From: Cladopsammia gracilis
Lineage: Eukaryota; Cnidaria; Anthozoa; Scleractinia; Dendrophylliidae
Reading direction: 5' to 3'
Length of the DNA stretch: 64,000 nucleotides
Assembly: GCA_022457155.1 (NCBI GenBank)
Contig: JAJGOT010001024.1
Location: 37,185-101,184, forward strand
Shown here one piece after another: positions 1,601 to 63,201 of the stretch; within the stretch, counting starts at the first letter, position 1; every line of letters begins with the position of its first letter. The translations under genes were made by a program, and so were the position numbers. A model generated the notes under the pieces. It searched no databases. It worked only from the letters and a program-made list of their open reading frames with translations, and had not been told where the DNA came from.

Positions 1601-1795
1601 TAACTAACTAATAAAGATTTTTGTTGTTGTTGTTGTTGTTGTAGAACTGACTGAATGAATAAAATCTTTTGCAAGGATTGGTGTATCAATTTGGAACTCT
1701 ATCCCTCATTCTGTTAAATCTCTTAATAAACCCAAGTTTTGAAATAAGATTAAAAAAATACTTCTTGATACTTTAGAGCTTGAGAATGACTAAAT
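1600..1795 (+). pseudogene. Short LINE C-terminal fragment with GTT microsatellite
   Basis: A (GTT)n run lies at about 1621-1642. Downstream, plus-strand translation gives IGVSIWNSIPHSVKSLNKPK with a stop and then KIKKILLDTLE, which resembles the C-terminal tail of CR1-like reverse transcriptases. Only this tail survives and it contains an in-frame stop. Confidence 0.5.
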
Positions 1796-2800
1796 TGAAG
1801 TTTCTCATCTGATCAATTGCTTCAGCAAATTATCATAGACCTATGTACCATATTTCAGATTTTGCACTTACATTTATTGTATGGTTTTTTGTTTTGTTTT
1901 GTTTTTCTTTCCTCTAGTTTTAACTTAATAACTGATGAAACACTGTTCCTCGTGTTTGATATATTACTTCAAATCAGTATACCAGAACAATTAAATGCCT
2001 TAGAATAATGGTAAATGTCCAAGCAGACTCTCATTCATTTCATTTCATTCATTTTTTTTTTTCAAGAAAACATTCATTCATTCTCTCCTAAAACACATTA
2101 GGAGAGAACCATTAAGTGAAGAAAAAAAACACAATTTCCCCACCCAGCATTTCTCAATGATCTGTACTCCTTGAAACTATTCTCTGCGACTTAATGTAAT
2201 GCTGGGAAGCAGGAAGTCGAGACGAGGTGTATATCAGGAAAACTTTCAAAATTAATTTCATTAGTGCTCAATTAAGCTTATAAGTACAAACACTTCACTT
2301 CATCAGTTAAGCTTATAAAAGACTGATCCGATCAGTCGTGTTCTCAGTTTTCAATGAACATTCCCTAACTGACACAGAACTCTTGATATTTATATCGCTC
2401 TGATGTGAACTCACATTATGGTATAGCTTTCCCTGCCTCAAATAGCATTTTTTTGCTAATTTGCACTGCAACAATATTTAGGTTTAATATGTTTGAATAA
2501 AGTTTTTGTTTGTTGTTTTTGACGCAAATGCCTCCTTTTTTCACGCAGATGTACCAAACAGATCTAACGCAGGTAGCCATTCTGCAAGGTGCCATTTTGG
2601 CTATAGAGGAAAAAGCAGAGAAGACCCCGGGGACAAGACTTGCCAATGTTTCACTGAAGAGGGCGTTCGATTGACTGTATTCCGGAATAAGAGTTATACA
2701 AAATAGTGTCTGAATAATGTTTGTTCAGGTACGTTAAAAGCATAAATCTGTCAGAGCATGCTTATATTACAGCCAGCCTACAGCACAGAGTATAATAGGC
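1796..2800. other. Non-coding sequence without recognisable genes
   Basis: It contains T-rich tracts (1887-1910, 2048-2064) and a small perfect hairpin at about 2081-2107 (TCTCTCCTAA ... TTAGGAGAGA). Open frames here are short, overlap each other on both strands and show no domain. Confidence 0.45.
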
Positions 2801-2814
2801 CATGCCAGTGACGA

Positions 2815-3245
2815 CACCCAGAAAAAGTCATTAAAATTGCTGAGCAACGACCAGAATATTGGTGGAATTACTTTGAACATCGTTAACGAGTTTACTTACC
2901 GATTATGGGCACCTCAAGCCAGCAACGTCGATGATGACTGTGTTCTGTTTTCAATTACCTACAAAGCAGAAAATACACCATTATACGGTACATGTAAATA
3001 ACTACCGATTCTATCACCGAACTCTAACTTTGTGTGGAATGTTGAGCTTCTTCTAAATTGATGTACAGAATGCTTTTCCAAATTTAAACTCCAAGAGCAA
3101 TATGTGAAATTGCTGAGCAACTACCACAAAGTACGTTGAAGTACTTTGATGAACATCTTTCATAAGTTAACTTACCGATTACAGGCACCTTAAGCGATGA
3201 AATGACATCGATGATGGCTGTGTTCTGTTTTCAACCTACAACCCA
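2815..3245 (-). repeat. Duplicated segment of about 145 bp with matching splice-like sites
   Basis: Two related copies (about 2830-2980 and 3105-3235) share AAATTGCTGAGCAAC, AACTTACCGATTA, GGCACCT, CGATGATG and TGTGTTCTGTTTTCAA. On the minus strand each holds a possible mini-exon: an acceptor-like CAG after ACAGAACA, and a donor G|GTAAGT after ATAATC or GTAATC. The copy at about 3180 is open in one frame. The copy at about 2900 has a stop in the equivalent frame. This could be a duplicated exon or a dispersed repeat. Confidence 0.4.
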
Positions 3246-3539
3246 GAAGCTCACCTTTTTATACACTAAACTATCACTAGTAAACAATCACCTTCCTTCC
3301 TCTTAATCTTAAAAACACTTGAAACAGTAAATCCACTTGAAACAGAATTTTCTTGCAGAGAAGAAAAAGTGAATTTATAGGTCGGGCAGACTTGACTTGC
3401 AGCCAAGCAGCCCGACTAACTATGTAACCAGCCAAAATAACTGCTAAAAAGGTCAAAATTTACACAAGAATGGCAAGTTTGATTTATTGACAGGCGGTCT
3501 CCTACAACTTCAATCCACAAAGGCTACGTAATCCACTTC

Positions 3540-3960
3540 AATCCTTGCAAGATTTTCCTGTACTTTATTTTGCAACTACTGCTTTTGTTTTGTTCTAAGT
3601 AGTTTCATGTAAGATACATGTGCTATATTTTGCTAAACGAGCGAGCCTGCTGTGCCGCTCTAGCAGGCACATGCACAAATTCTCGTATGAAGTTCCGGCG
3701 TCTGAAACAAATTATCATCTGTTTTCTTTTTTTCCGAATACAATCAGGGTCTGGAATAGCCTACCCCTGAATGTTGTTGAGGCACAAACTCAGTGTAAAT
3801 TCTTTCAGAGCTAAGGTAGACATGCGTGTTCTGATTATTTGTATTTTTTTTTTGTTATTATTACTTAATATTACTAGTAAGGCCGCTGAACACTTGCTAA
3901 GAATCATCTCATCGATGGAGAGCAAGTATTTGGAAAATAAAATAAAATAAACTACAATGT
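3540..3960 (+). pseudogene. 3' end of a LINE (C-terminal RT tail plus 3' UTR)
   Basis: Plus-strand translation at 3620-3812 includes RASLLCRSSRHMHKF and FFPNTIRVWNSLP, the typical end of CR1/L2-like ORF2. A short 3' UTR follows, ending in an A-rich AAAATAAAATAAAATAAAC tail near 3938-3952. 5' truncated. Confidence 0.65.
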
Positions 3961-4830: not shown

Positions 4831-5175
4831 AAGCGTAATCCTCGCCGACGCCGGTCTGGAGGGCCCAGGAAGCATTTCCTGCGAAAAAATAACTGTTTTT
4901 TCCTCATCGCTGCTCTGTTCGCAAGTACATCAGGCATGTCAAAATGGCGCGCAGAGCAGAGAGGGCCCTGATACGAGTCTATACTTCGTCGCCAGGGTCT
5001 CTCTGTTCTCTATTGGACGAATAATAAAACTTCGCGCGAGAATTGAAAAATCCTGTATCTGAATTTTTTTTTCCCGTCACTGGCGTGAAAAACGTTTCAG
5101 AATGGAGTGATTTTGGGGCCGAGATTGGCGCTTACACAAACAAAAAACGAAACGAAACGAAACAAAACAAAAGCA
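4831..5175. other. Non-coding sequence upstream of LINE
   Basis: GC-richer island (about 4845-5040). It includes TACGAGTCT with a nearby reversed CCAGGGTCTCTCTG, motifs that recur at 45160-45180 and 49500-49530. It is probably part of a dispersed repeat. No gene seen. Confidence 0.35.
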
Positions 5176-7263
5176 AATCAGAGGGTATGGGAGTCCCTTC
5201 TTAACACCATAGTAGAGAAGCACATGCCTACTAAGAGAATGAGATTTCATAGAGTCGATGTGCCATATATGACACCAGAGTGGAAAAGGGCAATCAAAAT
5301 GAAAAGGAAATTTGCCAAGCAATATGCTCAAAGCAGAACAGATGAAAACTGGGAGCTCAAGAGAATATGGAGAAATAAAGCTACTAACTACAGACGAAAA
5401 GCTATCAAAGAATATTGGAAACAAAAGGCAGATGAACTTAAAGCTAAGCCACGCGAGTTCTATAAAACCTTCAGGCCATTTCTTAGTGACAAGAAACAGC
5501 CTGCAAGCCACATCCACATTAAAGTAAATGGGGGAATTGAGAAGGACCAAGAAAAAGTAGCAAATGTTCTGGCAAACTACTTTTCTACGATGGCCAATGA
5601 TATTGGTGGAGCAGGTGTCAATAGCTTAACAGAGGACGATTTGTTGAGTCATCCAAGTCTCACTAACATTGGTTATGTAAATAAGAACAACCTCAAGAAC
5701 TTTTGCTTTCAACCACTCAGCAGTAATTCAGTTCAGTTAGCCCTTGAGAAACTAAATATCAGAAAGGCCTGTGGTTATGACTTCATATCTCCTAGAATGT
5801 TAAGGCTAGTATCAAGTGGCATAGCAGATTCCTTAACAAAGCTTTTTAATGAGTGTATAAGAAAAGGTGAATGGCCTGAAGCATGGGAGAAAGGAGAGTG
5901 GAACCCAGTCCACAAAAAGGATGACCGGTTGGATGAAAGAAACTATCGTCCTATAACATTGCTAAGTACAGTAGATAAAGTTTTTGAGTCTATGATGAGC
6001 ATACAAGTGAATAATCATTTTGATTCCGAGCTCGATCCCTGCATATCTGCGTATAGGAAAAAACATAGTTGTGAAACTACTTTGCTTAGACTCACTGAAG
6101 ATTGGAAACTGGCTGTGGATTCAGGACAATTTATTGGAATACTCTCAACAGATATGAGTAAAGCATTTGACTCCCTACATCCATCACTCATGATAAATAA
6201 ACTGAAGGCGTACGGCTTTTCAGAGGAAGCACTTAACTTGATGAGATCATATTTGTCCAATCGACAAAATAGAGTTAAACTCAATGGAGTTGCCAGCAGT
6301 TGGAAGGATACTGTTAGAGGATGTCCTCAAGGGTCATCATTTGGACCCTTACTATGGAACATTTTTCAAAATGATATGACATATATAGTAAACAATGCAA
6401 GCTTGTCAATGTACGCTGACGATCATCAGTTGTATGTAAAGGGGCATTCAGTTGACTGCGTGGAACAACTTTTAACAAAAGGGGGGCACACCATATCAAA
6501 ATGGTACAAAGATAATTATTTGAAGGGAAATTATGATAAGTATAATTTAATGTTATTAGGTAGGAAGAACAAAAATGAGAGTCCATCTGTCAATATCAAG
6601 ATTGATGAACAGGTTATTAAATCATCACCAGACTTGAAGCTACTGGGAGTAACATTAGATGATGAACTTAGTTTTAGTGCTCATATAAGTGATATATGCA
6701 AAAAGGCAAGTAAGAAAGTTGGTGTTCTGGTACGCCTTAGAAATATGATTCCCACAGAAGCCAAGTTACAATTGTATAAATCAGCAATTTTACCTGACTT
6801 AACATATTGTCACATAGTGTGGCATTTTTGCAAAGCATCAGATGCAAGAAAACTAGAAAAAGTACAAGAACGGGCATTACGTGCTGTATATAATGATAGG
6901 AATGCTACGTATGAGGAACTCCTAGAAAAGGGAAGACTCTCCAGTCTTGAGAATAGACGATTACAAGATATACTAATTTTAATGTATAAGGTTAAAAATT
7001 CAATAGCTCCAGAGCATGTATGCAATATGTTTTTTCAGCAAGATAAGCATTACAATTTACGAAATGATTTTCCGGTTCCAAGATATAATACTGTTAAGTA
7101 TGGTAAGCACAGTACCAGATTTTTAGGCCCATACATATGGGGCAAGATAAGCCAGGAACTACGCAGTAAGACCAGTCTTCAGGCATTCAGGAGAGGGGTG
7201 CGTGCTCTCAATGTGCTTGGCTTGCTGGACGGTACGTGTGGCTGCTGTGCATGCTCATCTTAG
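5107..7263 (+). CDS. LINE ORF2: reverse transcriptase, endonuclease missing
   Basis: An intact 718-codon frame encodes a non-LTR reverse transcriptase of the CR1/L2/jockey type. Visible RT motifs are ERNYRPITLLS (about residue 277), DMSKAFDSL (349-357), GCPQGSSFGPLLW (405-417) and the catalytic MYADD (435-439). The thumb and C-terminal tail follow, with HSTRFLGPYIWGKI near the end. The first 24 or so residues come from upstream low-complexity sequence (AAACGAAACG repeats). Real homology starts about 5180, so the apurinic endonuclease domain is absent and the copy is 5' truncated. The body is free of stops, which suggests recent insertion. The nominal start ATG is therefore accidental. Confidence 0.88.
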   Translation: MILGPRLALTQTKNETKRNKTKANQRVWESLLNTIVEKHMPTKRMRFHRVDVPYMTPEWKRAIKMKRKFAKQYAQSRTDENWELKRIWRNKATNYRRKAIKEYWKQKADELKAKPREFYKTFRPFLSDKKQPASHIHIKVNGGIEKDQEKVANVLANYFSTMANDIGGAGVNSLTEDDLLSHPSLTNIGYVNKNNLKNFCFQPLSSNSVQLALEKLNIRKACGYDFISPRMLRLVSSGIADSLTKLFNECIRKGEWPEAWEKGEWNPVHKKDDRLDERNYRPITLLSTVDKVFESMMSIQVNNHFDSELDPCISAYRKKHSCETTLLRLTEDWKLAVDSGQFIGILSTDMSKAFDSLHPSLMINKLKAYGFSEEALNLMRSYLSNRQNRVKLNGVASSWKDTVRGCPQGSSFGPLLWNIFQNDMTYIVNNASLSMYADDHQLYVKGHSVDCVEQLLTKGGHTISKWYKDNYLKGNYDKYNLMLLGRKNKNESPSVNIKIDEQVIKSSPDLKLLGVTLDDELSFSAHISDICKKASKKVGVLVRLRNMIPTEAKLQLYKSAILPDLTYCHIVWHFCKASDARKLEKVQERALRAVYNDRNATYEELLEKGRLSSLENRRLQDILILMYKVKNSIAPEHVCNMFFQQDKHYNLRNDFPVPRYNTVKYGKHSTRFLGPYIWGKISQELRSKTSLQAFRRGVRALNVLGLLDGTCGCCACSS

Positions 7264-11416: not shown

Positions 11417-11860
11417 TCACCTATGACTAAGCATAAATTCTCGCCAACCAGGCGGCGGCGGGGGAAGAACATAGCGCGGAAACAGGTCGTCCTCCGGCTC
11501 GATGGGAATACCATAATATTCCAGCCACCAGTTCGGATCCGGTGGGGGTGGGGGTGGGGGTGGATAAGAAACCCATTGAAAACAGAACGGGTTCGGTCCC
11601 AAAGGAATATTGTGGTCTGTAATGTGGTAGGGATGCAACGCAGACCTACAGTGAGGACATGTATTGCGTACCGCCTGCTCTGCGAAGCGGAGACACCCTT
11701 GTAAGCAAGTTTCGTGGATGTACTTGCCACAACATGGCAGGGGTTTTGAAGGGTGCTCATTGGGTACATTGAAACAAATGAAGCATTTGGTTTCCAGAAA
11801 TTTGTTTAAGCGCTGTTTGGCGCGTTCGGGACGGCGTTTTCTTCGTGCCGGCTTTGGCAT
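11417..11860 (-). CDS. Small RING-type zinc-finger protein with proline-rich C-terminus
   Basis: A 147-residue protein. A basic N-terminus (KPARRKRRPERAKQR) precedes a RING-like zinc cross-brace: C26-x2-C29, C43/C44, H49-x2-C52, then C68-x2-C71 (CPHC). A lysine occupies the place of the usual first histidine, so it is a variant RING. The C-terminus has two proline blocks (eight prolines at about 105-112, five at about 133-137). RING proteins usually act as E3 ubiquitin ligases, but the substrate is unknown. The ATG lies 18 bases after a good splice acceptor (TTTTCTTTCAG, minus strand, about 11881), suggesting a spliced 5' UTR. It lies downstream of the recombinase gene at 13-15 kb on the same strand and may travel with it (inference). 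Confidence 0.6.
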   Translation of the reverse strand: MPKPARRKRRPERAKQRLNKFLETKCFICFNVPNEHPSKPLPCCGKYIHETCLQGCLRFAEQAVRNTCPHCRSALHPYHITDHNIPLGPNPFCFQWVSYPPPPPPPPDPNWWLEYYGIPIEPEDDLFPRYVLPPPPPGWREFMLSHR

Positions 11861-11959
11861 GGCAAAAGCTGATCTGTTCTGAAAGAAAATATAAGGACAA
11901 TGGAATCATAATTAAAATGGTGGGGAAACCGGCGGAAAACGAGCAGAATTAGTATGACT

Positions 11960-13057: not shown

Positions 13058-15238
13058 TCAGCCCTTCTTAACTAAGGCGTAGATTCGTTCCTTGGCTGTT
13101 CGAAGCTCGTACGTTCCGTCGAGTCGATGGAAAATGACATCTACAGGGTAGATTAGAGCACTGGTCTTCTCTTCCCACACGTCAGACCCTGCATTAAACT
13201 GGAAGTAATTCGGGCGAGTTTCCAATTCTTTGAGCCAAGCGAGTCGAGCGGTCTTTCCGTCTGCAGTGTACTTAAGAACCTTGGCTAAAAACACACTGGG
13301 GCGTTCGAAAGTAGCATCGGCCGTGACGAGTGCACAAATTTCTCCCGGTGACGGCAGTTCGTCGACGTCCGAGCTTTCTTCCTCGTCGCTGACTTCCTTT
13401 GAGGTACTGGGAGGTTCGTCCAAGATGAAATTCACTGCTGATCTGTTTAAATAGCGCATGGCTACCGACCTGCGCTCAGGCTCAGTACGACGATCGTAAA
13501 TTTGAATTTTGGCTCTTAAACTGTGCTTGCAAACACGCGCAAGTGATTCCGCTAGTCTTCCATCGGAACTCTCTGGCGAAGAACGAAAGTACTCAACGAG
13601 AGCGTGTCTCATTTCGTTAATTGCGCAGGGAAAGCCCAGATTTTCCTTAAAGACTTGCGACAGATAATTTGAAAAGGTCCCAGATGTCTTGAATTCCGTA
13701 CCGTGCTTGTTGACAAAAAAGTACTCGTGTGCATCTTTGCTGGAAAGGAGTCGTGGTCTGGATATGCGATTGTACTGTCTGAGATGATAGCCTACGAACT
13801 GGTAGTCTGCCGTGTCAAATCGAACAACATTTGGGCCGTATTTTCGCACGGTCTTGTAGCCAGTTTCTATTAACCAGATAGGCCCGTCACTCGAAAATGC
13901 AATTACATTGTCTCCTTGTGGTATGCTTCTTGCTAATTGTTCGATTTCGTTCTCTTCTGCTACTTTCCTAAGCACGCGAAGAGTTATGAGTTCTTTGCCT
14001 CGGCCAGGATTTACAGCAAACAGCAGCAGCATTGTGAAATTCATATGAACACGCGCTTTGGCGGCACCTGAAGTTTGTTCGTACTTGCAATGAAGGCTTC
14101 GAACAAGCTCTTGATATTGCGGCCAAAAAAGTTTGGCCGCACCCGGCGCTCTCTGTGAGATACGTTGTGCCTTTTCCAACTGATTAGTGAGTGCGCGAAG
14201 ACCTGACACACTTTCCACTAGTTCATAATCTCGTCGGCCTTCGTCAACGTGAATAAATGTTGCAGTGGACAGAAGAGCGTGGACATATCGAGAAGCCGTG
14301 ATATTCTGGACGCCTTTGTTTTGCTTGAGGTAATTTATGAATCGCTCGACCAACGGCAAATCATCGACGAGGGCCAAGGCGGGTTTAAGCTTTGAGTTGG
14401 CCCAGCTATGAGACAGGAATGTGACAAGCCTCTCCATGGTTTTCTTCCAAGTGCTTTCTTTCATATGAGGTGACCGCCGTTTGTGATTGAACTGGGAAAC
14501 ATAGAACGCCTTCATCTCTTTGACCTTCGGTATGACATCGTCGAATGTCGACAGATCTAGTTTTCTTTTCTTTAATAGGAGGACGATGTCAGACTCATCT
14601 TCCGACTCACTGCTGTCTGCGCTGGAAAAATCTTCTTCTTCTTCTTCTTCTTCTTCTTCTTCTTCCTGGAATTCTGCATGTGTCGACTCGCCTTCGCCTG
14701 AGCTTTCAGGAGGCTCTGCTATTGGTGCAATCGCATAAATAGAGGAGCTTCTCCTTGCGGTCTCGTCTTTCAGGATGTGGTCGATGGAGAAATTCGAAGG
14801 TGTTCTTCTGGTCGGGCTATTTTGATTGGTGGCATTGTGGAATAATTGGGCTGGCAATGTTCGCTTTGTCTCTCGACTAAAACCCCCCTCAAATTTTAAG
14901 AAACCGCTTTCGCGTCTTTGGCTCTCGCTGTTGGTACTACGAAAACTACATACTTCACTAGACTTAAAACTTAATTGTCGTTCATTTTGTATGCGCGACT
15001 GGTGATAAGCATGAAGAACGTATACATCTCGTTTAGCTACAAGAGAGATAACTTTTAAGCCAGCCAACTCTGGCCTTGCCTTCCTAATATGGTCTTGAAT
15101 GTCTCCAGGGCAGTGGACAAGATTCAGTCCCAATGTTCTCATGCGCGATTTGATAGTTTGCCTAGGAATGCCATTAAACACTTTGTTGCATACCTCGATG
15201 CATATATATGAAAGGGTGATGTACTTGGCCCTCGTCAC
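13058..15238 (-). CDS. Tyrosine recombinase (integrase-fold) protein, Crypton-like or related
   Basis: An intronless 726-codon frame. Residues 1-80 form a compact conserved-looking domain (VFNGIPRQTIKSRMRTLGL) resembling SKI/DAC-type folds. Residues 150-235 are acidic low complexity with a run of 11 glutamates. Residues 255-345 look like the SAM-like core-binding domain of tyrosine recombinases. The catalytic domain follows: box I PGRGKEL (R413), hairpin lysine about K462, box II NEMRH (N541, R544), second histidine H572 (CKHS) and nucleophile Y581 (QIYDRR). The usual box II first histidine is asparagine. A C-terminal region (630-726) looks like a small beta-barrel. The frame opens at GTG; the first in-frame ATG is at 15142, so the N-terminus is uncertain and may include an upstream exon or frameshift. 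Cryptons and some Polinton-like viruses use such enzymes. No element ends were found. Confidence 0.78.
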   Translation of the reverse strand: MTRAKYITLSYICIEVCNKVFNGIPRQTIKSRMRTLGLNLVHCPGDIQDHIRKARPELAGLKVISLVAKRDVYVLHAYHQSRIQNERQLSFKSSEVCSFRSTNSESQRRESGFLKFEGGFSRETKRTLPAQLFHNATNQNSPTRRTPSNFSIDHILKDETARRSSSIYAIAPIAEPPESSGEGESTHAEFQEEEEEEEEEEEDFSSADSSESEDESDIVLLLKKRKLDLSTFDDVIPKVKEMKAFYVSQFNHKRRSPHMKESTWKKTMERLVTFLSHSWANSKLKPALALVDDLPLVERFINYLKQNKGVQNITASRYVHALLSTATFIHVDEGRRDYELVESVSGLRALTNQLEKAQRISQRAPGAAKLFWPQYQELVRSLHCKYEQTSGAAKARVHMNFTMLLLFAVNPGRGKELITLRVLRKVAEENEIEQLARSIPQGDNVIAFSSDGPIWLIETGYKTVRKYGPNVVRFDTADYQFVGYHLRQYNRISRPRLLSSKDAHEYFFVNKHGTEFKTSGTFSNYLSQVFKENLGFPCAINEMRHALVEYFRSSPESSDGRLAESLARVCKHSLRAKIQIYDRRTEPERRSVAMRYLNRSAVNFILDEPPSTSKEVSDEEESSDVDELPSPGEICALVTADATFERPSVFLAKVLKYTADGKTARLAWLKELETRPNYFQFNAGSDVWEEKTSALIYPVDVIFHRLDGTYELRTAKERIYALVKKG
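14632..14666. repeat. (TTC)n microsatellite inside the recombinase gene
   Basis: Eleven or so TTC units, reading as polyglutamate on the minus strand. It is in frame, so repeat-length changes alter only the acidic linker. Confidence 0.95.
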
Positions 15239-17326: not shown

Positions 17327-17333
17327 ATAGAGA
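17327..17333. repeat. Left 7-bp target-site duplication
   Basis: ATAGAGA directly abuts the CCCGGCG terminus. The identical heptamer follows the other terminus at 20940-20946. Confidence 0.85.
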
Positions 17334-17340
17334 CCCGGCG

Positions 17341-17540
17341 TAGTCAATCGATAAAAATCGATATCGGAAAATCAATCGATAAATCGATAGCTATCGATAA
17401 ATTGATGTTAAACGATATCGATTTTATCGATCAATCGATAAAATTCGATACTCACACGCCGACGAAGTGTTAATTTTATCGATTGTATCGATTGTATCGA
17501 TTTTATCGGATTCATCGATCGCTATAGAATCGATAAAAAA
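17341..17540. promoter_or_regulatory. Left subterminal ATCGAT array (13 sites)
   Basis: Exact ATCGAT hexamers start at 17347, 17357, 17375, 17383, 17393, 17417, 17426, 17434, 17478, 17487, 17496, 17514 and 17529, many as AATCGATAA or TTATCGATT. Several neighbours are spaced 8-10 bp, close to one helical turn. ATCGAT/ATCAAT is the known core of CUX and ONECUT binding sites. The element encodes a protein of that class, so these are candidate binding sites for it. Confidence 0.75.
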
Positions 17541-17672
17541 TTATCCTGTTTCCGTTGAGGGAGCGTTTGATTGTGACTCTTCAAATGAAGATTTTAAAGG
17601 CGGCAATGAAATTATTTGTTGACAAGCACTGTACAAGAGAACAAAGAGACTGCATCATGAATTCTTTCTGAT

Positions 17673-17678
17673 TTTATT
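17673..17678 (-). terminator. Polyadenylation signal of the CUT-homeodomain gene
   Basis: AATAAA on the minus strand, 20 bases after the TAA stop at 17698-17700. Confidence 0.7.
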
Positions 17679-17697
17679 GTTCCATAACTAACGTAAA

Positions 17698-19128
17698 TTA
17701 TTTTTCCTTTTCCGCGGGCTTCTCGGCTTCTCGGCTGTCTAAATTTGCCCTTTTTCCTTTATTCCGGTGGTTTTGAAACCACGTTTTAACCTAAGAAACA
17801 TAAAGAATACGAAGTGATCAATATAAGGAATGATTCGAAAGTATTTGCATAACTAGCCTCCTACGCAGACACCTCTTTGTGCTCGTTACGCAAACGTCCT
17901 TTGGACTCGTCACGCGTGACGAGCCGTAAGAACGTCTGCGTAGAAGGCTATCACGCGATCAGATCATACTGGCCTGCGTAGGAGGTTTAAGTAGTTATCG
18001 ATAAAATTATCATCAATAATATTCGATGAAATAAAATAAATACACCTTTTTTAATGAAAGGATTATACAAAGAGTTGTAAACTCGTTAGTCTTACTTGTC
18101 TTGCTTCCAAGTCGAGCGTCTGGGCCAATTTCTCCGTTAGCTCTGGGCTTGCATGGCCATTAGTTGCTTCAAAGGCTTGCTTCAAACCAGACAACTGGTA
18201 CTCTTTAAATAGCACTCTTTTTTTAGGGTTAGATGATGTCGAGCCTGGAGTTTCATTTGACTTTCGTTTTCCTGGCAACAAGATAAATCTTAGTTCAGTT
18301 TTGACGACCTGATCTTCACAAAGGCGTGGCCTTTATTATGTATCCTTCTTCCGGGCCATATTTTTGAATTACATAGAACTTAAAACCACGTACCTTTGTT
18401 AAAGGCGATCAGCTGCTCCTGGCTGCTCGTATCCTGTAAGAATTTATCCATTTTTTGCCATAAAAATGTTCCCTGGCCCTTTGGAAGCTCTGGTGGCGGC
18501 ATTCTCAGCGCATCAGAGAGTGTAGATTGCTTCCGACCGAGTACTTCGGCGGCAAACAATGCCTGGCTCACGCCGTTCTTGTGAAGCCAAGCATTTATGT
18601 CATTGGCTATAGCATTTGGCGGTCTTGTCGTTGTGATGCTTTGGTTTTCTAGAAATTAATGGAAAGATTACGGAATAGTGATTCCCTTAGAGGGGCTATG
18701 TCAGTGTCAGTGTTTCTTTTAAAAGCCAAAATAGTTATTTATATCAGTAGAAACCCAAAAATAATGGTCCAGGTTTAATTAAAATTATTATTCTAGTACT
18801 CAAAGGGTAAAGGCTGCAGATGGCCAGGATGGAAATGGATTGGGCCCGATTGGGCTAATTTTTTCAAGTTTATCGCTTCTGCCTTGGAAAACTTGATAAA
18901 ACTCTGGTTATCCGGGCTTATCCACGTCGCTTTGTGTAAAACGTTTCGATAATACCCACCTTCGCTATTCTGAGGCGCGGAAGATTCGTCTGCTCCTGTG
19001 GCTTCGCGCGTTTCTTCTCCTGGGCACTCTGTGATATCCCCCCCTCTTTTTAACACGAATTCCGTCAAGGCATTTCTATCTCCCTCATTTACAGTTACTA
19101 TTATGCTAGAGACTGATTCGCCAACCAT
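17698..19128 (-). CDS. CUT-domain homeodomain transcription factor encoded by the transposon
   Basis: Four exons by canonical splice sites: 19128-18960, 18648-18394, 18271-18096 and 17790-17698. Donors are G|GTGGGT, G|GTACGT and A|GTAAGA; acceptors are TTTCTAG, TTGCCAG and TTTCTTAG. Phases agree at every junction and the total is 693 nt, giving 230 residues with an ATG start and TAA stop. Residues about 68-130 form one CUT domain (core GVSQALFAAEVLGRKQSTLS, then LWQKMDKFL). Residues about 158-217 form a homeodomain (KKRVLFKEYQLSGLKQAF; recognition helix VKTWFQNHRNK with W204, F205, N207, R209). Position 50 of the homeodomain is Gln, unlike ONECUT (Met) and CUX (His). A basic tail follows. It should be a nuclear DNA-binding protein. 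The flanking ATCGAT arrays match the known specificity of the class. Exon 1 is the least certain part, because its coding sequence overlaps the opposite-strand gene. Confidence 0.87.
17850..17985. repeat. Hairpin MITE in the last intron of the CUT-homeodomain gene
   Basis: CTCCTACGCAGAC at about 17858 is answered by GTCTGCGTAGAAGGCTA near 17933, with a GACTCGTCACG / CGTGACGAG palindrome at the centre. It lies inside the intron 17791-18095 and does not disturb the exons. Confidence 0.7.
18690..18930. mobile_element. Partial GGGGCTATGTCA MITE in the first intron of the CUT-homeodomain gene
   Basis: Starts GGGGCTATGTCA and matches the MITE at 12590-12953 through AGATGGCCAGGATGGAAAT and CGCTTCTG.CTTGGAAAA. 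The other end is missing. It falls within the intron between exon 1 (ends 18960) and exon 2 (starts 18648). Confidence 0.65.
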
Positions 19129-20287
19129 TAGCAAAAGAGCCCGTGTCTTATCTGGTAACAACAACAGTGGACAAGACTTTAGGACAACTAACCCTAACTA
19201 CATAGAGCACAATGGAACCTATTTCCATATTTCTGAGTTTTTGTCTATTATGCAAGGGAAAGTTTACATGCCATCCACTTCAAGAAATGCCCGGTGGATG
19301 GCGGTCTCTAAGGTTAATTATTATGACAACATTGATAAAATTGCAGCATCAACAAATCAGGAAAATATGCATTACAACGCATATGCCGCTTTCTGGATGG
19401 GCGATCAAGGTCTTGTCATAGGGAAGGTAGTTCGAATGCACTGCAGTCCTACTACCAAGAGTGCATACCCAATTCTGCAATGGAAGAAGGACGATCCAAA
19501 AAGTAATGTTGTAACATGCTGTGTTAACGTCGCCCCGATAGATGTTACATCAGACAGCTGGAGTTTACAACTCAAACACCGTTTCGTATTCTGTCCGATG
19601 AAAGCGCTGCTCGCTCAACTCCGCGTCATCGATCGCGAGCAGGGGCTAGAGGTCGATACAAATGATGTGGTAAAGATAACAAGCATGCTACCGCAACTTC
19701 GCGAGGCAGAAAAAAAAAGGAAGGAAGATGAGGTAAAAGAGAAGGAAGAAAGTGTGCGAAAAAGAAAAGAGGGACCTCCAGAGGAGATGAGCGTTGTCCT
19801 GTTAAAGGAAGTGTTGAAGGAAATGGGCATAAGTGTGAGGAATAGCTCGACAAAGTCTCAGCTTGTAGAAAAGGTTAAACAGGCACGCGCTGGCCAGCTA
19901 GAAGAAACGTCGTCTACAGGTACAACCCGAACTGCATCACACGGGGGCTTCAGTGACTTCAGTGACTACGACGACAAAAGATATGTACAGCCTTGCCTTT
20001 ATTTGCTGTTCCATGACCCAACGGAAAAACGCCGTGTTTTGTTTATTATCTTGATGTGTATCATATACTCGCTTATTCAGATGTTTTCTGAGTTTTCAAA
20101 TCATCAGTTACTTTCAATAATTTATCAGTTTTTCTTGTCACTTTACTTTTTATTTTACTTTGTTGCTGAGTTCATCATTCACATTGTTTTACTGATTTAT
20201 AAAGCAATTCTAAGTCTGTTAATTGATATGATTTTTGCAGCTGCAAGAGTTTCGCTTGTGGAAACTGTACGGAACATTGAAACTTAG
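19103..20287 (+). CDS. SAP-like domain protein of unknown function, second gene of the transposon
   Basis: The plus frame is open from 18998. I favour the ATG at 19103 (394 residues) because it is followed at once by a plausible NLS-containing start (SPTISKRARV). Residues about 25-175 form an uncharacterised globular region (NGTYFHISEFLSI, YNAYAAFWMGDQGLVIGKVV, then cysteine pairs and QLKHRFVFCPMKALLAQL). Residues about 200-225 are a charged Lys/Glu helix. Residues about 229-262 resemble a SAP helix-extension-helix DNA-binding motif (MSVVLLKEVLKEMGIS, then KSQLVEKVKQA). After FSDYDDKR the frame becomes hydrophobic and T-rich. This may be an intron read through, with an acceptor TTTTTGCAG at about 20240, rather than a true membrane tail. 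AATAAA follows at about 20380 and 20556. No transposase catalytic motif was recognised. It is the candidate partner or enzyme of the CUT-homeodomain protein. Confidence 0.6.
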   Translation: MLETDSPTISKRARVLSGNNNSGQDFRTTNPNYIEHNGTYFHISEFLSIMQGKVYMPSTSRNARWMAVSKVNYYDNIDKIAASTNQENMHYNAYAAFWMGDQGLVIGKVVRMHCSPTTKSAYPILQWKKDDPKSNVVTCCVNVAPIDVTSDSWSLQLKHRFVFCPMKALLAQLRVIDREQGLEVDTNDVVKITSMLPQLREAEKKRKEDEVKEKEESVRKRKEGPPEEMSVVLLKEVLKEMGISVRNSSTKSQLVEKVKQARAGQLEETSSTGTTRTASHGGFSDFSDYDDKRYVQPCLYLLFHDPTEKRRVLFIILMCIIYSLIQMFSEFSNHQLLSIIYQFFLSLYFLFYFVAEFIIHIVLLIYKAILSLLIDMIFAAARVSLVETVRNIET

Positions 20288-20774
20288 TTGCTTCAAGTAT
20301 TTGAAAGTCGGTGAAGCTAAATGTTACAGTTTTGTTAATGTTCAAGTTAATTTACATGTAAAAACACATGTATGGAATGTCAATAAATGTTGTTATCGTT
20401 GGTTTTTAGTGCCTATCACAAGCTATATTGCTTTTTATTTAACGTTAAGATCACGAGCCCGAGGGCGTGTAGATCATTTGTTCATATCTTTCAGCAAAAA
20501 ATGGCTGGGTAAAAAAGGTCAAAAGAGCATGAGCGTGCGATTGTGTTACATCAGCAAATAAAAGAAAAACAGTGGAATAATCAACCAGGGATCTAAAGCG
20601 GATTTCATATACAATACACGCTTGGTATTACTAAAAAGTTTGTGGAAAAGATGCAACAATTTTTATCGATTACGAACAGGGAAGTTGTTATAAGTGTTTC
20701 AGCGAGCTCTTTAATATCTTTTGGTGTTTCCGCTTCGTAAAAGGGCACGTTAATTCAGTTTCGATAAAATTCGA

Positions 20775-20930
20775 TGTAATCGATAAAATCGATAGCCCTA
20801 ATTGGAAAATCGATAATTATCGAATACTCACAACGAAATCCTTTATCGATTTTTATCGAATTTCGAAAAAATTAATCGATTTTTATCGATTGTTATCGAA
20901 TGCTATCGATTATCGATATTATCGATTGAC
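20775..20930. promoter_or_regulatory. Right subterminal ATCGAT array (9 sites)
   Basis: Exact ATCGAT at 20779, 20788, 20809, 20845, 20875, 20885, 20905, 20912 and 20921, plus several TATCGAA variants. It is a counterpart of the left array and includes a shared CGA(A)TACTCACA segment in the same orientation (17447 and 20820). Confidence 0.75.
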
Positions 20931-20939
20931 TACGCCGGG

Positions 20940-20946
20940 ATAGAGA
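20940..20946. repeat. Right 7-bp target-site duplication
   Basis: ATAGAGA, identical to 17327-17333. Confidence 0.85.
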
Positions 20947-22632: not shown

Positions 22633-25600
22633 CGTATGCCTCGTGAATGTCCCGACATGCTTGTGACTTCACCAACACCTTCATTTCCACGTAACGCACA
22701 CAAACGCAGCCTCTGGTGGGTCTTAACGTAACCTCTGAAACACCGTTTTTCACCCTGTCACTACCATACTGTGTTCCGGGCGGGAAGCTCTGTATGGCCA
22801 CTTTTGTTGGATTTCCCGGCATTCTTTGGGCTAAACTCAGTCAACGTATGCCTCTTAAATGTACCGACATGCTTTGTGACTTCACCACACCTTCATTTCC
22901 ACGTAACGCACACAAACGCAGCCTCTGGTAGTTCTTCTCGTAACCTCTGAAACACTGTTTTTCACCATGTCAGTACCATGCCGTGTTCCGGGCGGGAAGC
23001 TCTGTTTGGCCCCTTTTGTTGAATTGTCCGGCAATCTTTGGGACAAACTCAGTCAACGTATGCCTCTTGAATGTCCCGACATGCTTTGTGCCTTCACCAA
23101 CACCTTCATTTCCACGTAACGCACACAAACGCAGCCTCTGGTGGGTCTTCTCGTAACCTCTGAAACACCGTTTTTCACCCTGTCACTACCATACTGTGTT
23201 CCGGGCGGGAAGCTCTGTATGGCCACTTTTGTTGGATTTCCCGGCATTCTTTGGGCTAAACTCAGTCAACGTATGCCTCTTAAATGTACCGACATGCTTT
23301 GTGACTTCACCACACCTTCATTTCCACGTAACGCACACAAACGCAGCCTCTGGTAGTTCTTCTCGTAACCTCTGAAACACTGTTTTTCACCATGTCAGTA
23401 CCATGCCGTGTTCCGGGCGGGAAGCTCTGTTTGGCCCCTTTTGTTGAATTGTCCGGCAATCTTTGGGACAAACTCAGTCAACGTATGCCCCTTGAATGCC
23501 TCGACTTACTTCGTGACTTCACTAGCACCTTCATTTTCACGTATCGCACGCAAACGCAGCCTCTGGTGGGTCTTCTCGTAACCTCTGAAACATCGTTTCT
23601 TACCCTGTCACCACCACACTGTGGTCCGGGCGGAAAGCTCTGTTTGGCCACTTATTTTGAATTTCCCGGCATTCTTTGGGCCAAACTCAGTCAACGTATG
23701 CCTCTTGAATGTCCCGACATGCTTGTGACTTCACCAACACCTTCATTTCCACGTAACGCACACAAACGCAGCCTCTGGTGGGTCTTCTCGTAACCTCTGA
23801 AACACCGTTTCTTACCCTGTCACTAAAACACTGTGGTCCGTGCGGGAAGCTCTGTTTGGCCCCTTTTGTTGAATTTCCCGGCATTCTTTGGGCCAAACTC
23901 AGTGAACGTATGCCTCTTAAATGTCCCGACATGCTTGTGACTTCACCAACACCTTCATTTTTACGTATCGCACACAAACGCAGCCTCTTGTGTGTCTTCT
24001 CGTAACCTCTGAAACATCGTTTTTCACCCTGTCACTACCATACTGTGGTCCAGGCGGGAAGGTATGTTTGGCCACTTTTGTTTCATTTCCCGGCATTCTT
24101 TGGGCCAAACTCAGTCAACGTATGCCCGCTGAATGTCTCGACATACTTCGTGACTTCACTAGCACCTTCATTTTCACGTATCGCACACAAACGCAGCCTC
24201 TGGTGGGTCTTCTCGTAACCTCTGAAACATCTTTTCTTACCCTGTCACTACCACACTGTGGTCCGGGCGGGAAGCTCTGTTTGGCCCCTTTTGTTGAATT
24301 TCCCGGCATTCTTTGGGCCAGACTCAGTGAACGTATGACTCTTGAATGTCTCAATATAGTTCTTTATTTCACTAGCACTGTCAATTTCACGTTTCGCACA
24401 CAAACGCAGCCTCTGGTGGGTCTTCTCGTAACCTCTGAAACACCGTTTCTCACCCTGTCACTACCATACTATGTTCCGGGCGGGAAGCTCTGTTTGGCCA
24501 CTTTTGTTGGATTTCCCGGCATTCTTTGGGCTAAACTCAGTCAACGTATGCCTCTTAAATGTACCGACATGCTTTGTGACTTCACCAACACCTTCATTTC
24601 CACGTGACGCACTCAAACGCAGCCTCTGGAAGGTCTTCTCCTAACCTCTGAATCACCGTTTTTCACCATGTCACTACCATACAGTGGTACGGGCGGGAAG
24701 CTCTGTTTGGCCCCTTTTGTTGAATTGTCCGGCATTCATTGGGCCAAACTCAGTCAACGTGTGCCTCTTGAATGTCCCGACATGCTTTGTGACTTCACCA
24801 ACACCTTCATTTCCACGTAACGCACACAAACGCAGCCTCTCGTGGGTCTTCTCGTAACCTCTGAAACACCGTTTTTCACCCTGTCACTACAATACTGTGG
24901 TCCGGGCGGGAAGCTCTGTTTGGCCCCTTTTGTTGAATTTCCCGGCATTGTTTGGGCCATACTCAGTCAACGTATGCCCCTTGAATGTCTCGAGTTACTT
25001 CGTGACTTCACTAGCACCTTCATTTTCACGTATCGCACACAAACGCAGCCTCTGGTGGGTCTTCTCGTAACCTCTGAAACATCGTTTCTTACTCTGTCAG
25101 TACCACACCGTGGTCCGTTCGGGAAGCCCTGTTTGGCCACCTTTGTTGAATTTCCCGGCATTCTTTGGGCCAAACGCAGTCAACGTATGCCCCTTGAATG
25201 TCCCGACGTGCTTGTGACTTCACCAACACCTTCATTTCCACGTAACGCATACAAACGCAGCCTCTTGTGGGTCTTCTCGTAACCTCTGAAACACCTTTTT
25301 TTCCCTGTCACTACCATACTGTGGTCCGGGCAGGAAGCTCTGTTTGGCCACTTTTGTTGAATTTCCTGGCATTCTTGTGCATTCCCGGCATTCTCTCATT
25401 CCCGACATGCTTGTGGCTTCACCAACACCTTCATTTCCACGTAACGCACACAAACGCAGCCTCTGGTGGGTCTTCTCGTAACCTCTCAAACACCGTTTCT
25501 TACCCTGTCACTACCACACCGTGGTCCGTGCGGGAAGCTCTGTTTCTCCCCTTTTGTTGAATTTCCCGGCATTCTTTGGGCCAAACTGAGTCAACGTATG

Positions 25601-49635: not shown

Positions 49636-52239
49636 AATGTTTATGTTTATGTTTATGTTTATTTCCCACAAATTTGTATAACATAATAAGTAAATATTCA
49701 ATTTACATGGTAGTCGGGAGGAAGACTAAAGAAACCCTAAACGGGCTTGTACAAAGTAGTCCCCCTTTGATACAAATTACATTATTCAAAGTTAAATTAA
49801 TCAGGATATCAGGTCTGGTGTACAAATAACAGTTATAATTAAAAGTACAGATAAATTATGCAAGTTAACGTCCATATTATAATCACTATAAAGTAAGGAA
49901 TTGCTTCATTTTCTTTTTGAAAGCATGTATAGACAAAGAACGTTTTATAGAGGAGTTCTAGTCCATATATTAACTATCTTACTTCTTAAAGAGTATTTTC
50001 CATAGTTAGTTCGGTTAAAAAACTGATAAATTATGCAAGTTAACGTCCATATTATAATCACTATAAAGTAAGGAATTGCTTCATTTTCTTTTTGAAAGCA
50101 TGTATAGACAAAGAACGTTTTATAGAGGAGTTCTGTTCCATATATTAACTATCTTACTTCTTAAAGAGTATTTTCCATAGTTAGTTCGGTTAAAAAACTT
50201 ATGTAGATGTTTTGAGTTCCTAGTATTATACTAGTGAACCATGGACTTGAGTGTTTTCTAAGCAGAAGTCACTGAAATAGGCGGGTAATGATTTACTGAT
50301 AAGACTAAAACTGAAAGATCCAATTAGTAGGTCATTAATTTGGTGTATATTTAAGAGACCCAACTTTTTAAAAAGAGGAAGAGATGGTGCGGTATATGGC
50401 GAGGATGTTATAATACGTAGTGCCTTTTTTTGTAATTTCAATAATTTCATCAGCCTAGTGGGGTAATTATTTGCCCAGACAATATTTCCATAATGTAGGT
50501 AGGGGTAAATTAAACTATTATATAACATTTTTAAGAGTGTTTGACCGACATAGAAACGAATTCTACATAGCATACCGGTAGTTTTTATAATCTTCTTAGT
50601 GATACAATCAATATGGTTCTTCCATGTTAAGTGTTGGTCAATTATAATTCCTAAGAATTTAGTTTCATTTACTCTCTGAATCTCCTTGTTGTCAAGTTTA
50701 AGAACCAGTGATTTATTTAATTGTTTCTTTTGTGATCTAAATATTATGAAATTAGACTTTTTAATATTGAGTGTAAGTTGATTTAGTGTTAACCATTCTT
50801 GAACATAAACTAACTCCGCATTTATATTAGACTCGAGTTCATTAATGTCTTCACCTGAGCAAAAAAGATTAGTATCATCCGCAAACATTATAGTAGATAA
50901 TTTATTGGTAGAGTGATTTAGGTCATTAATCGTAAATTAGAAAAAGTAATGGTCCAAGAATAGATCCTTGTGGGACCCCACATGTAATTCTCATTTCTGT
51001 TGATCTGATTTGATTATATTTAACAATTTGTTTTCTGTTTGTAAGGTAATTTTTTATCCATGCATGAGAATTTCCGCGTATACCATAGAAATATAGTTTC
51101 TTTAGGAGAATTTCATGATTTACTGTGTCAAATGCCTTTGATAAGTCAAGAAATATACCAACAGTGAACTGGTTATTTTCAATCCCTTGTGTTATTTTAT
51201 CAACAAGTTCTATTATTACATAATTGGTAGAGCTTTTACTTCGAAATCCATATTGATGATCTGATAAGATTTTATTTCTATCTACATAGTCCAATAGTCT
51301 TTTATACATTAGTTTTTCAAGTATTTTCGAAAAACAGGGAAGAACAGAGATAGGTCTGTAATTTGAAAATACATTTTTATCAGATGATTTATACACTGGT
51401 GTTACCAAGGCTACTTTCAATTCATCTGGGACTTTACCAGTTGAAAATGTCATATTAAAAATGTGAGACAGTGGTAGAGATATATAAGGGGCTACATATT
51501 TAACGACTTTGCTATTTATGTCATCAATACCACAGCTTGACTTGTTTGCCATTTTATCAATTACTTTGTTAACCTCATCACATGTTGTATAATGTAGAAA
51601 CATGGAGTCACAATAACTTCCCTTTAGAAATTTATAAAATTCATCAGAGCCGTGATCAAATTTTTTAGCCAGATTAGGCCCAACATTAATAAAAAATTCA
51701 TTAAATTTATTTGCAATGAATTTAGGATCACTGATTTCATCATTGTTGTTGTTTAAAAACAAACTGGGTAAAGAGATGTTTGATTTTCTATTACCAAGTA
51801 ATTCGTTAATAGTATTCCAGGTAGATTTTATATTATTTTGTGCTTGACTGAATTTTTTACAATAATAATTCTTTTTAGCAATTCTTATGAGATGATTCAA
51901 TTTATTGCGATATAATTTGTAATCATGTTCATTTTTTGATGTCGGATTCTTTAGAAATTTTTTATAGAGTACTTCCTTGGTTTTTGAAGATTTTCTTAAG
52001 CCTTTAGTTATCCATAAATTGTCCGACCTTCGTGTACTTTTGCATTTAGTCATTTTAACAGGAAAAGATTTATCATAATGGTCAGAGAACTCAGAGAAAA
52101 ATGCTTTAAATGACTCTGCTGGGTCGTTCTTAGATAACGTAGTTAACCAATCACAGGTTTTAAGGCTACTAGAGAACGATTCTAGAGATTTCTTACTTAT
52201 TGTTCTAGTTGCATGGGAACTATCTGTTCCAGAGCCCAA
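49636..52239 (-). mobile_element. CR1-like LINE, 5' truncated, one frameshift
   Basis: Two adjoining minus frames (52239-50926 and 50888-50226) form one reverse transcriptase ORF. RT blocks in order: NYRPISVLPCFSKILEKL, FLDLSKAFDTVNHEILLKKL, CGVPQGSILGPLLFLIY, then MFADDTNLF in the second frame. A single-base insertion near 50935 breaks the frame just before the catalytic block. The last part of the ORF and the UTR contain a 175-bp tandem duplication. The 3' end is a (CATAAA)n tail (49636-49662, minus). The endonuclease domain is absent. Otherwise well preserved, so the copy is fairly young. Confidence 0.88.
49850..50199. repeat. 175-bp tandem duplication in the LINE 3' part
   Basis: The block from GATAAATTATGCAAGTTAAC to GTTCGGTTAAAAAACT is present at 49850-50023 and 50024-50199 with almost no differences. 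A later, local duplication within this LINE copy. Confidence 0.92.
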
Positions 52240-53640: not shown

Positions 53641-56600
53641 CTAGACTGCCTGGTCAACAGTAAGTCTCCTAATAGCATCTGCCGCATTTGCTGCTGCTGT
53701 TCTGCGTGGGGGTCTATCCGCCACGATCACCGGTTGTGGGTTCGCTTGCCTGGGCCTCGCCCGCTGTCCGTCCGCTACTGTGATCTCCAAAGGGTACAGT
53801 TTCTGAAGTGGTCGGCGTAATGCACTGTCTTTTCCTTTCTGCGATACAACTCGTAGTGTAGCGCCTCGTACTTCTCCATCTCGACTCTGCAGCAACTCTG
53901 TCACTTCCGCGACCCTCCATTTCGACCTTGGCAGCCCATCGTCCTGGACTATGACTATTTCTCCCACAGCCAACTTCCGGCGGTCTTGACCTTTATCTGT
54001 TCCGCATTGGTGACGCTCCCTTAACTCTCTCAGATACTCCTTGGACCACCTTTGCCAGAATTGCTTCAGCAAACGATTTAGGTAATCTGCTCTTCTCTGT
54101 GATGCTGCTCCGCTGTCCTCATTGTCACTCGATTCACTGGGATCTGGCAAACTCGATGCCCTCCGTCCTAAGATGAGGTGTGATGGCGTCAGCGGCTCGT
54201 CGTCAGATACATCTGAGTAGACGTAAGTGATTGGCCGCGAATTAAGTACTCCCTCCACCTCCGTGACCACAGTGAGAAGTTCTTCGTAAGAAAGTCTGGC
54301 GTTTCCTAGAAGCTTGCGAAGCCGCCTCTTCACCAACTGTACCATCCTCTCGTAAAATCCGCCCCACCATGGCGCACGTTCGAGGATGAACTTCCAACTG
54401 ATGCCTTTATTAGCGGTGTACTCTGCGACCGCTGGATGCCGGAACAACTTGCCAATGTCCTTATTGGCCCGCTTAAATGTTTTTGCATTGTCAGATGTAA
54501 TTGATGTTGGCATGCCCCTTCTCGCAATGAATCTCCTTAGAGCTCTCATAAATGCTGCGACTGACAAGTCCGGCGTAATCTCGAGATGTAGCCCCCTCGA
54601 TGTTGCACATGTAAATAAACAGATATACACCTTTGTCATTCCCTTCTCTTTGTTATCCGTTCTAACGAATAACGGTCCCGCAAAGTCCACTCCGACATGT
54701 GTGAACGCTAGTGTTTCCTTGACTCTGTCTCCAGGCAGGTCTGCAGGCGCAGGTGGTTTAAATGAGATGCCTTCCAGTCGCTTGTAGGTTACACACTTAT
54801 GCAGCACCTTCTTGATGCTCTGTCTTCCTTTTGGGATCCAGTACTTTGTTCTGAGCTCCGTGAGTGTGTCCTTGACGCCCCCGTGGAACGTGCGCTCGTG
54901 ACATGCGCGAACGATCAGCTTGGTTATATGCCCTTCTCCTGGGAGTAGTACCGGATGCTTAGCATCGTCGCTTAACTCTGCATTGCCCAACCTTCCCCTG
55001 CTGCGTATGATGTTATTGTCATCCTTGTACAATCCAAGTTGACTCTCCAGATCTTTGTAGGTGCTTTTCGCCTCCATGTCTGACTGCAATTCTTTGACCC
55101 AAGCATTTTCCGCATCTTTTATCTCTGTGGCTAACAGGCTGCCTTCTATGACCTCTGATTGCTTCCCATGCAGTTTGGCTCTGCAGTTATGCACAAACCT
55201 TCTCACTGCAGCTGTAACCCTGAATAGCTTTAAACAGCTACTGTAGCGCTGGCAGTCTATTAAGCAAGAGAGTCTTCCCACCTCAATGCTGTCAATGGTC
55301 TTCGCTGTACTTGCGAAAACTGCTGAACGAATCTCCTGTGTACATTCAGCAGGCAACTCAGGAGTACTGTCCGTCTTGTCTGCCTTTGGATAGTTCTCTT
55401 CGGCCTCTCTCAGCCAGCGTGGCCCTTGCCACCACAACTCATTCTGTTCTAGTTCTGACGCTAGACAACCCCGTGATCCAATATCTGCGGGATTCTCTGT
55501 GCCAGGGCAATGTCCCCAGTCCCTTCCATTCGTTAGCTTCATGATCTCGTTAACTCGGTTCTGTACAAATTGTTTGTAGTCCTTTCCAGACTGAATCCAA
55601 TATAGTACAACCCGACTGTCAGTCCAGTAATGAATTCTCTCTATTTGTAACACAGGTGCTAGCGCCTCCTTTACCGCTGCTGTCAGTCGTGCTAGAATCC
55701 ATGCTGCTACAAGTTCCAGTCGTGGGATTGACATCGGTTTTAACGGCGCTACTCGACTCTTTGACACCACAAATCGCGTTGCAAATCCGTCGTTCGTTTC
55801 ATAACGCAAATAGACGACCGCACTGTACGCTTTCTTCGATGCATCTCCAAATCCATGTAGAACCGCTGACGTGACTCGCCTTCCCTGCTCCGTAAAGTAA
55901 TAGCGATCCATGGATATCTCCTGGGTTTCCTTGATGTCACGCAGCCATTTTTGCAGGTGCTTCGTGCGCGTGTCTGGCAGAACACAGTCCCACTCAAATT
56001 TGTCTGCAAACAGTTCTTGAAGCAGAAGCTTAAAGTTCAACATGATCGGCGAAACGAATCCTAATGGATCAAAGAACTTCGCTGCCACGCGTAACACATT
56101 ACGCTTTGTTAATTCTAGGCCTTCTGCAAACTCTGTGACCTTGCCCAGTTTCAACACAAATTTGTCTTCCGATAAGTTCCAGTTCGTACCCAACACTTTC
56201 TTTTCCTTTGTCGTTTCGGCTTCCTCCAGACGTCCAACTGCAATTTTGGCGTATGACTCATCCTCTTGTGTGACTTGCTGGCTTACTGTGGGTGTGTCGA
56301 TGGCTTCTTCCTCGATGATCCGTTTGTTCAGCTCCTCGTTGTTCGACGCCCACTTTCTAAGATTGAAGTTCCCTGCGGCAAAACAAGCCTTCACTTCTTT
56401 GTACAACCTGTACGTTTCATCTTCACTCTCCTCTCCAGATGACAAGTCGTCGACATACAATCCGGATAGAATTCTCTTGGCGAGATCAGGATTCTCCGGG
56501 TAGTAATTAGAAACATGATGATGCAAAGTTCCATTTAGCAGAAACGGGGAACAGTTCATTCCGAATATAACTCTGCAGAAACGATACACTTCCACCTTTG

Positions 56601-59019: not shown

Positions 59020-59030
59020 GATTTATTTAT

Positions 59031-63200: not shown

Positions 63201-63201
63201 A

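Follow-up and report, generated by a model that had tools for sequence, protein, structure and literature searches.

Harbinger, which carries a Myb-like protein, and En/Spm, with TnpA and TnpD, are two-component transposons, a group known from plants and animals, that encode a second DNA-binding protein, and En/Spm also has subterminal repeats. Homeobox genes are textbook host regulators that normally control animal development. The P superfamily, which includes the Drosophila P element and THAP9, has inverted ends and a DDE transposase in which a DxxH follows the second D. Passages of Kojima and Jurka (2013, PMC3706591) give this superfamily a target-site duplication of 8 bp, describe Dada elements as targeting small nuclear RNA (snRNA) and transfer RNA (tRNA) genes and report Dada-U6 and Dada-U1 to be without terminal inverted repeats. 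A 64,000-nucleotide stretch of the Cladopsammia gracilis genome (assembly GCA_022457155.1, contig JAJGOT010001024.1, positions 37,185 to 101,184; hereafter the window) contains at 17334-20939 an element with a CUT-homeodomain gene between inverted ends that both begin CCCGG. This element is mobile DNA, and the window copy, shortened by an internal deletion, is probably a non-autonomous member of a young cut-and-paste transposon family that uses two proteins.

An earlier interpretation made from the letters of the window (hereafter the sequence-only reading) had described perfect 21-bp inverted ends and a 7-bp target duplication, both of which are present (Table 1), and had proposed looking for many copies with differing duplications and for empty sites in relatives. 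The genome that contains the window (878 Mb, 1,469 contigs) has copies with different duplications as well as repeat copies free of the insertion. The 21-mer end, searched with up to two mismatches, gave 467 matches and its reversed control pattern none, which excludes a single genomic copy or a host gene; pairing by eye among 100 of the 467 yielded 34 facing end pairs spanning 887 to 13,424 bp. Among the 24 copies with both ends read, the duplications varied in sequence and measured 7 bp in 17 and 6 bp in 7 (13 and 2 in a sample of 15, 4 and 5 in a sample of 9; excluding loci L002 and L006, where the fetched stretch has a single perfect end), which refines the figure for this family, family 1, to 6 or 7 bp. 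The window insertion is nested within another repeat, and its joined flanks matched all 40 of the places scored, out of 399 candidates, at 87-92% identity, all of them spanning the junction at query position 150, with 35 covering query 5-288 and the other five 6-288, 5-287 (twice), 16-293 and 5-278. Six insertion-free copies of this repeat were fetched from the same genome, and the target site is single in each (ATAGAGA in five, ATAGAAA in one). Differing duplications, insertion-free repeat copies and the contrast of 467 matches with none thus establish a mobile element.

The element had also been called self-contained, which did not hold: its missing transposase sits in longer copies with the same ends, of 8,269 bp (C699), 12.2 kb (C126) and 13.4 kb (C969), the extra DNA being a 3.96-kb insertion in C126 and other additional DNA in C969. 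Positions 1-1766 and 1769-3606 of the window element match C699 and C126 at 99.6-99.9% (blastn), and the 4.7 kb between the matched parts, gone from the window copy, holds most of a 1,261-codon transposase frame. The deletion took the 5' ends of both genes; since the native start of the CUT gene was removed, its start codon in the window (19128) is an ATG that happens to occur in transposase sequence read antisense. As the sequence-only reading remarked, no transposase domain is recognisable in the window copy. Its divergent SAP-like gene survives as a plus-strand frame with SAP-like helices and not as a separate gene, being the last 394 of the 1,261 transposase codons; likewise, of its suggestion of a non-autonomous element with domesticated host exons, the first half fits and the second does not, as the full element and related families also carry the CUT-homeodomain gene. 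The outcomes that it had named as refuting its view, a lone copy or a known transposase in copies lacking both genes, were not encountered, all three long copies read carrying both genes. A 601-bp piece of transposase-core DNA is complete in five family-1 copies and partial in two, and the matched frame is free of stops in three of the five long copies (C126, C699, C969). The insertion in C126 (L009 3163-7125) lies between transposase exons and has short inverted sequences, CTCCTGTAAGTT, at its ends.

The four exons proposed for the CUT-homeodomain gene splice to exactly 230 codons, and one spliced family-1 protein holds both a CUT domain (Pfam E 3.4e-13) and a homeodomain (E 1.1e-15). Among solved proteins, HNF-6 and ONECUT2 come closest to its CUT-homeodomain region, in a comparison made with a mis-spliced protein whose matched region is unaffected. 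With the ONECUT homeobox class the gene shares a single CUT domain followed by a homeodomain, but it differs in being element-borne, in an N-terminal segment of its own common to families 1-4, and in Q instead of the M of ONECUT at homeodomain position 50, a numbering that we take to apply to family 1. The part of Table 1 of PMC4901127 that bears on this position lists M for ONECUT and Q for SATB.

The transposase is linked to the P element by its predicted structure. Its modelled core matches P-element transposase over 407 residues, and the candidate catalytic residues drawn from the alignment, D248, D350 (GADGDSK), D403xxH406 and E582 (P0002 numbering), fall at modelled strand and helix positions that suit an RNase-H fold. 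After the P-like core come a PHD finger, a BAH-like barrel, SAP/HeH-LEM helices and a hydrophobic tail, with HeH/LEM Pfam matches in 12 of 24 transposase homologs. A hidden nuclease, suspected earlier in the SAP-like part, did not emerge from structure prediction: Foldseek gave no match at E <= 0.001 for the model of 19103-19972, and its top rows, to Xrn1 (best E 0.034, 145 columns, root-mean-square deviation 12.6, target TM 0.06), were taken as no nuclease support, Xrn1 appearing in none of 50 rows from a second aligner.

A CUT-homeobox gene occurs in five families of this genome, on the strand opposite to a P-like transposase in four, and both genes lie within one element in families 1, 2, 3 and 5, as in a two-component transposon. 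One named relative, the Montipora foliosa 'ceh-21-like' protein (P0026), is 49% identical to the family-1 CUT-homeodomain protein; a genome search with it led to family 2, in which the spliced protein of L039 is identical to P0026 at 212 of 215 residues. Among 12 family-2 loci fetched, ten have both ends, 7,889-7,913 bp apart with inverted CCCGG termini, and duplications of 7 bp in nine and 6 bp in one; the transposase is about 60% identical to that of family 1. The left end of family 2 has 14 genomic matches (12 exact, control 0), so this family lacks the swarm of derivatives seen in family 1. That the homeobox gene is element-borne, as the sequence-only reading had supposed, is confirmed by a four-exon layout that families 1 and 2 share and by its presence in all three long copies read. 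Between these two families, the CUT gene has proportions of nonsynonymous (pN) and synonymous (pS) differences of 0.31 and 0.77, saturated; nonsynonymous and synonymous divergences (dN, dS) are 0.18 and 1.68 for the transposase core and 0.38 and 0.90 for its hydrophobic tail, and the synonymous sites of the BAH/SAP part are saturated. Judged by these substitutions, the coding function of both genes seems to have been preserved.

In family 3 (C1003), a CUT gene with a weak homeodomain match runs antisense to a transposase that is 36-49% identical to the six queries. Family 4 (C1140, L045 888-1430 and 3843-4547) combines a CUT-homeodomain frame with a single CCCGG end, in which ATCGAAC is repeated. 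Family 5 (C928) ends in CCAGACAT, is flanked by a 6-bp duplication and has a divergent CUT domain (E 3.2e-23) with a homeodomain (E 2.5e-13); its CUT gene emerged on reading C928, a locus that at first looked CUT-less. Scoring 37 of 302 candidates gave 35 distinct transposase loci, 21 of which have a CUT match within 10 kb among the matches listed.

The ends of these elements are crowded with a CUT-type motif. The window element has 22 ATCGAT in the 400 bp of its ends, 3 in its 3,206-bp interior and 16 in the remaining 60,394 bp of the window, and 2,000 Markov-1 simulations gave a mean of 4.35 and a maximum of 13 for the ends. In full elements, counted as two 250-bp ends versus interior, ATCGAT occurs 22 versus 3 times in family 1 and 19 versus 1 in family 2, AATCGAAC 24 versus 1 in family 3, and ATCRATG 29 versus 3 in family 5; family 4 has 14 ATCGAAC in the 500 bp of its single end. 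The counts for families 3-5 are descriptive, since the motifs were picked from repeats sought in families 3 and 5 themselves. Both ends bear arrays in families 1, 2, 3 and 5, and among the 34 paired copies the nine shortest (887-1,257 bp), which have lost most of the interior, all keep 22-24 ATCGAT. The type of CUT protein pairs with the motif, RKQSTLSD (families 1 and 2) with ATCGAT, NRSKS (3 and 4) with (A)ATCGAAC and a third type (5) with ATCRATG. Proteins of the CUT/ONECUT class are expected to bind ATCGAT/ATTGAT-type sites. The ATCGAT arrays match an ONECUT1-type site, for which a portion of PMC11607640 gives the reporter site AAATCGATAT, and on the strength of the motif the end arrays look like binding sites of the element's own CUT-homeodomain protein.

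These results suggest a two-protein, P-like cut-and-paste transposon, which we consider the probable explanation, in which the CUT-homeodomain protein would bind the end arrays. The full element (8,269 bp at C699) encodes a predicted DDE transposase with a P-element-like core and a small, divergently read CUT-homeodomain protein. The latter would bind the ATCGAT array at each end, mark the ends, bring both together in synapsis and deliver the transposase, which may then catalyse cutting at the CCCGG termini and insertion with a 6-7-bp duplication; the few full copies could supply the proteins in trans that move deletion copies which keep their arrays.

Several observations weigh against this model. 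Array retention is no proof of CUT binding, as the arrays lie at the extreme ends, needed by any transposase. The CUT gene of family 3 sits antisense between two exons of the transposase rather than upstream, the homeodomain match is below the Pfam cut-off in the scanned family 3 and 4 frames, and the 9 kb fetched for family 4 contained a single end and no transposase. Fourteen of the 35 listed transposase loci have no CUT match within 10 kb (two are family-1 deletion derivatives, four have the match pattern of C928, in which the CUT gene was read, the other three being unread, and eight are unread), and two of the five long family-1 copies (C1270, C1183) have a stop in the matched transposase frame. 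P-element/THAP Pfam models match none of the 24 homologs at E 0.1 and none of four family-1 frames scanned at E 1, and a profile of the 24 homologs fails to find P transposase by sequence, so the P link rests on the predicted fold.

The chief competing explanation, which is unlikely on present evidence, makes the CUT-homeodomain protein only a regulator, whose binding to the arrays would repress or time either transcription or copy number, with end recognition left to the transposase. Transcription factors are the usual kind of homeodomain protein, and the transposase has possible DNA- or chromatin-binding modules of its own (PHD, HeH/LEM, the HIRAN-like domain of family 5 and, by eye, a zinc-finger-like exon); against this, arrays stand at both ends in families 1, 2, 3 and 5, and 22 of the 25 ATCGAT of the full family-1 element are at the ends, with no site between the divergent genes (about 1785-2030 of the element), where autoregulation through ATCGAT was considered and rejected. 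It is improbable that a host ONECUT/CUX protein binds the arrays and that the CUT gene of the element serves as a decoy or competitor shielding it from host control: the arrays do match the ONECUT1-type site and host CUT-class genes probably exist in the genome (weaker matches were left unclassified), but the array motif varies in step with the CUT sequence of the element across families, a co-variation that is suggestive and no test, as there are only three classes. Transposons do capture host exons and some transposase loci are without a CUT match, but a passenger captured once and carried without function is very improbable given a gene kept in several families, its identical four-exon layout in families 1 and 2, and pN well below pS between them.

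With the two-protein transposon as the preferred model, the elements can be placed among known systems. They resemble the P superfamily in the DDE with DxxH after the second D, the predicted core fold and the inverted ends, but differ in a duplication of 6-7 bp instead of about 8 bp, in the added PHD, BAH-like, HeH/LEM and hydrophobic-tail modules, in giving no THAP/P-element Pfam match, and in having a separate CUT-homeodomain gene and long subterminal arrays. Membership of the P superfamily proper is withheld because two usual features, a P/THAP sequence match and an 8-bp duplication, are absent. Dada elements share the 6-7-bp duplication, the long multi-exon structure and the DDE with DxxH, whereas the present elements have perfect 21-bp ends and varied insertion sites; Rfam at gathering threshold gave no match in the window or in six copy-bearing loci, and membership is ruled out by the inverted ends, the varied duplications and the lack of any small-RNA-gene target seen. 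Like Harbinger and En/Spm they encode a second DNA-binding protein, though one of the CUT-homeodomain type that accompanies a transposase with a P-like core. The elements would be P-element-type cut-and-paste transposons with an added end-binding partner. More tentatively, they may form a superfamily-level animal lineage with a P-like fold, a captured CUT-homeobox end-recognition subunit co-evolving with family-specific arrays, and a transposase (PHD, BAH-like, HeH/LEM, membrane-like tail) tethered to chromatin at the nuclear envelope.

The papers listed by the literature searches, with Repbase itself and preprints outside their reach, name no transposon-encoded CUT-homeodomain protein. Here a homeobox gene is a lasting transposon part whose apparent binding sites form the transposon ends, which suggests a route for developmental-type transcription factors into transposition machinery, and the system is a directly testable two-protein transposon. 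Each burst of the element would spread arrays of about ten CUT-type sites per end through the genome, and annotated coral homeobox genes such as Montipora foliosa 'ceh-21-like' may be transposon genes.

Table 1. Features of the window element and its flanks (window coordinates).
Feature	Position	Strand	Basis
Left target-site duplication ATAGAGA	17327..17333	.	single site in 6/6 fetched empty repeat copies
Left terminal inverted repeat CCCGGCGTAGTCAATCGATAA	17334..17354	+	21 nt, 100% complementary to right end
Left subterminal array, 13 ATCGAT sites	17347..17534	.	motif count
CUT gene exon 4 (VKTWFQNHR..., homeodomain helix 3)	17698..17790	-	splicing to 230 codons
CUT gene exon 3 (homeodomain)	18096..18271	-	Pfam PF00046, E 1.2e-6 in open frame
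CUT gene exon 2 (CUT domain)	18394..18648	-	Pfam PF02376, E 6e-14 in open frame
CUT gene exon 1; first codons (19128 to about 19100) antisense transposase sequence, native start deleted	18960..19128	-	
Internal deletion junction	19099..19102	.	4,663 bp fewer than 8,269-bp C699; blastn to C699, C126
C-terminal 394 codons of P-like transposase (predicted fold), residues 868-1261 of 1,261-codon frame	19103..20287	+	ATG at 19103
BAH-like (SH3-type) beta barrel	19343..19669	+	weak structural match
SAP / HeH-LEM-like helices	19775..19900	+	structure model m8843e3595638; HeH/LEM in homologs
C-terminal hydrophobic (membrane-helix-like) segment	20036..20197	+	in 11/12 family proteins of at least 1,250 aa
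Right subterminal array, 9 ATCGAT sites	20779..20926	.	motif count
Right terminal inverted repeat	20919..20939	-	complementary to left end
Right target-site duplication ATAGAGA	20940..20946	.	direct repeat with 17327..17333

Some further features of the transposase were noted. A hydrophobic tail after HeH/LEM-type helices is unusual for a transposase (homologs P0003-P0018 compared) and is absent from the distant P0025 and Clytia proteins; we take the combination to be reminiscent of inner-nuclear-membrane LEM proteins. The N-terminal exon of the family 5 transposase has a HIRAN-like domain (E 8.6e-5; exons of L057 and L046 inspected), and a zinc-finger-like exon opening with a short hydrophobic stretch was seen by eye in families 1, 2 and 3, with only family 1 passing the hydropathy cut.

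Elsewhere in the window, a retroelement frame with a reverse transcriptase (RVT_1, E 1.5e-25) lies at 5089-7260 on the plus strand, and minus-strand frames at 50226-52239, 53641-59022 and 60321-63211, including a 1,793-codon gag-pol-like frame, also look by eye like retroelements. The 726-codon minus-strand frame at 13061-15238 has no Pfam match at E 0.01 and may, from its look by eye, be tyrosine-recombinase-like. A small RING-finger-like frame at 11420-11905 on the minus strand matches zf-RING_2 at E 0.001, below the Pfam cut-off, and repeated units of about 70-80 codons (RTQTQPLVGLLVTSETSF...) at 23332-25282 on the plus strand probably form, judged by eye, a tandem repeat array.

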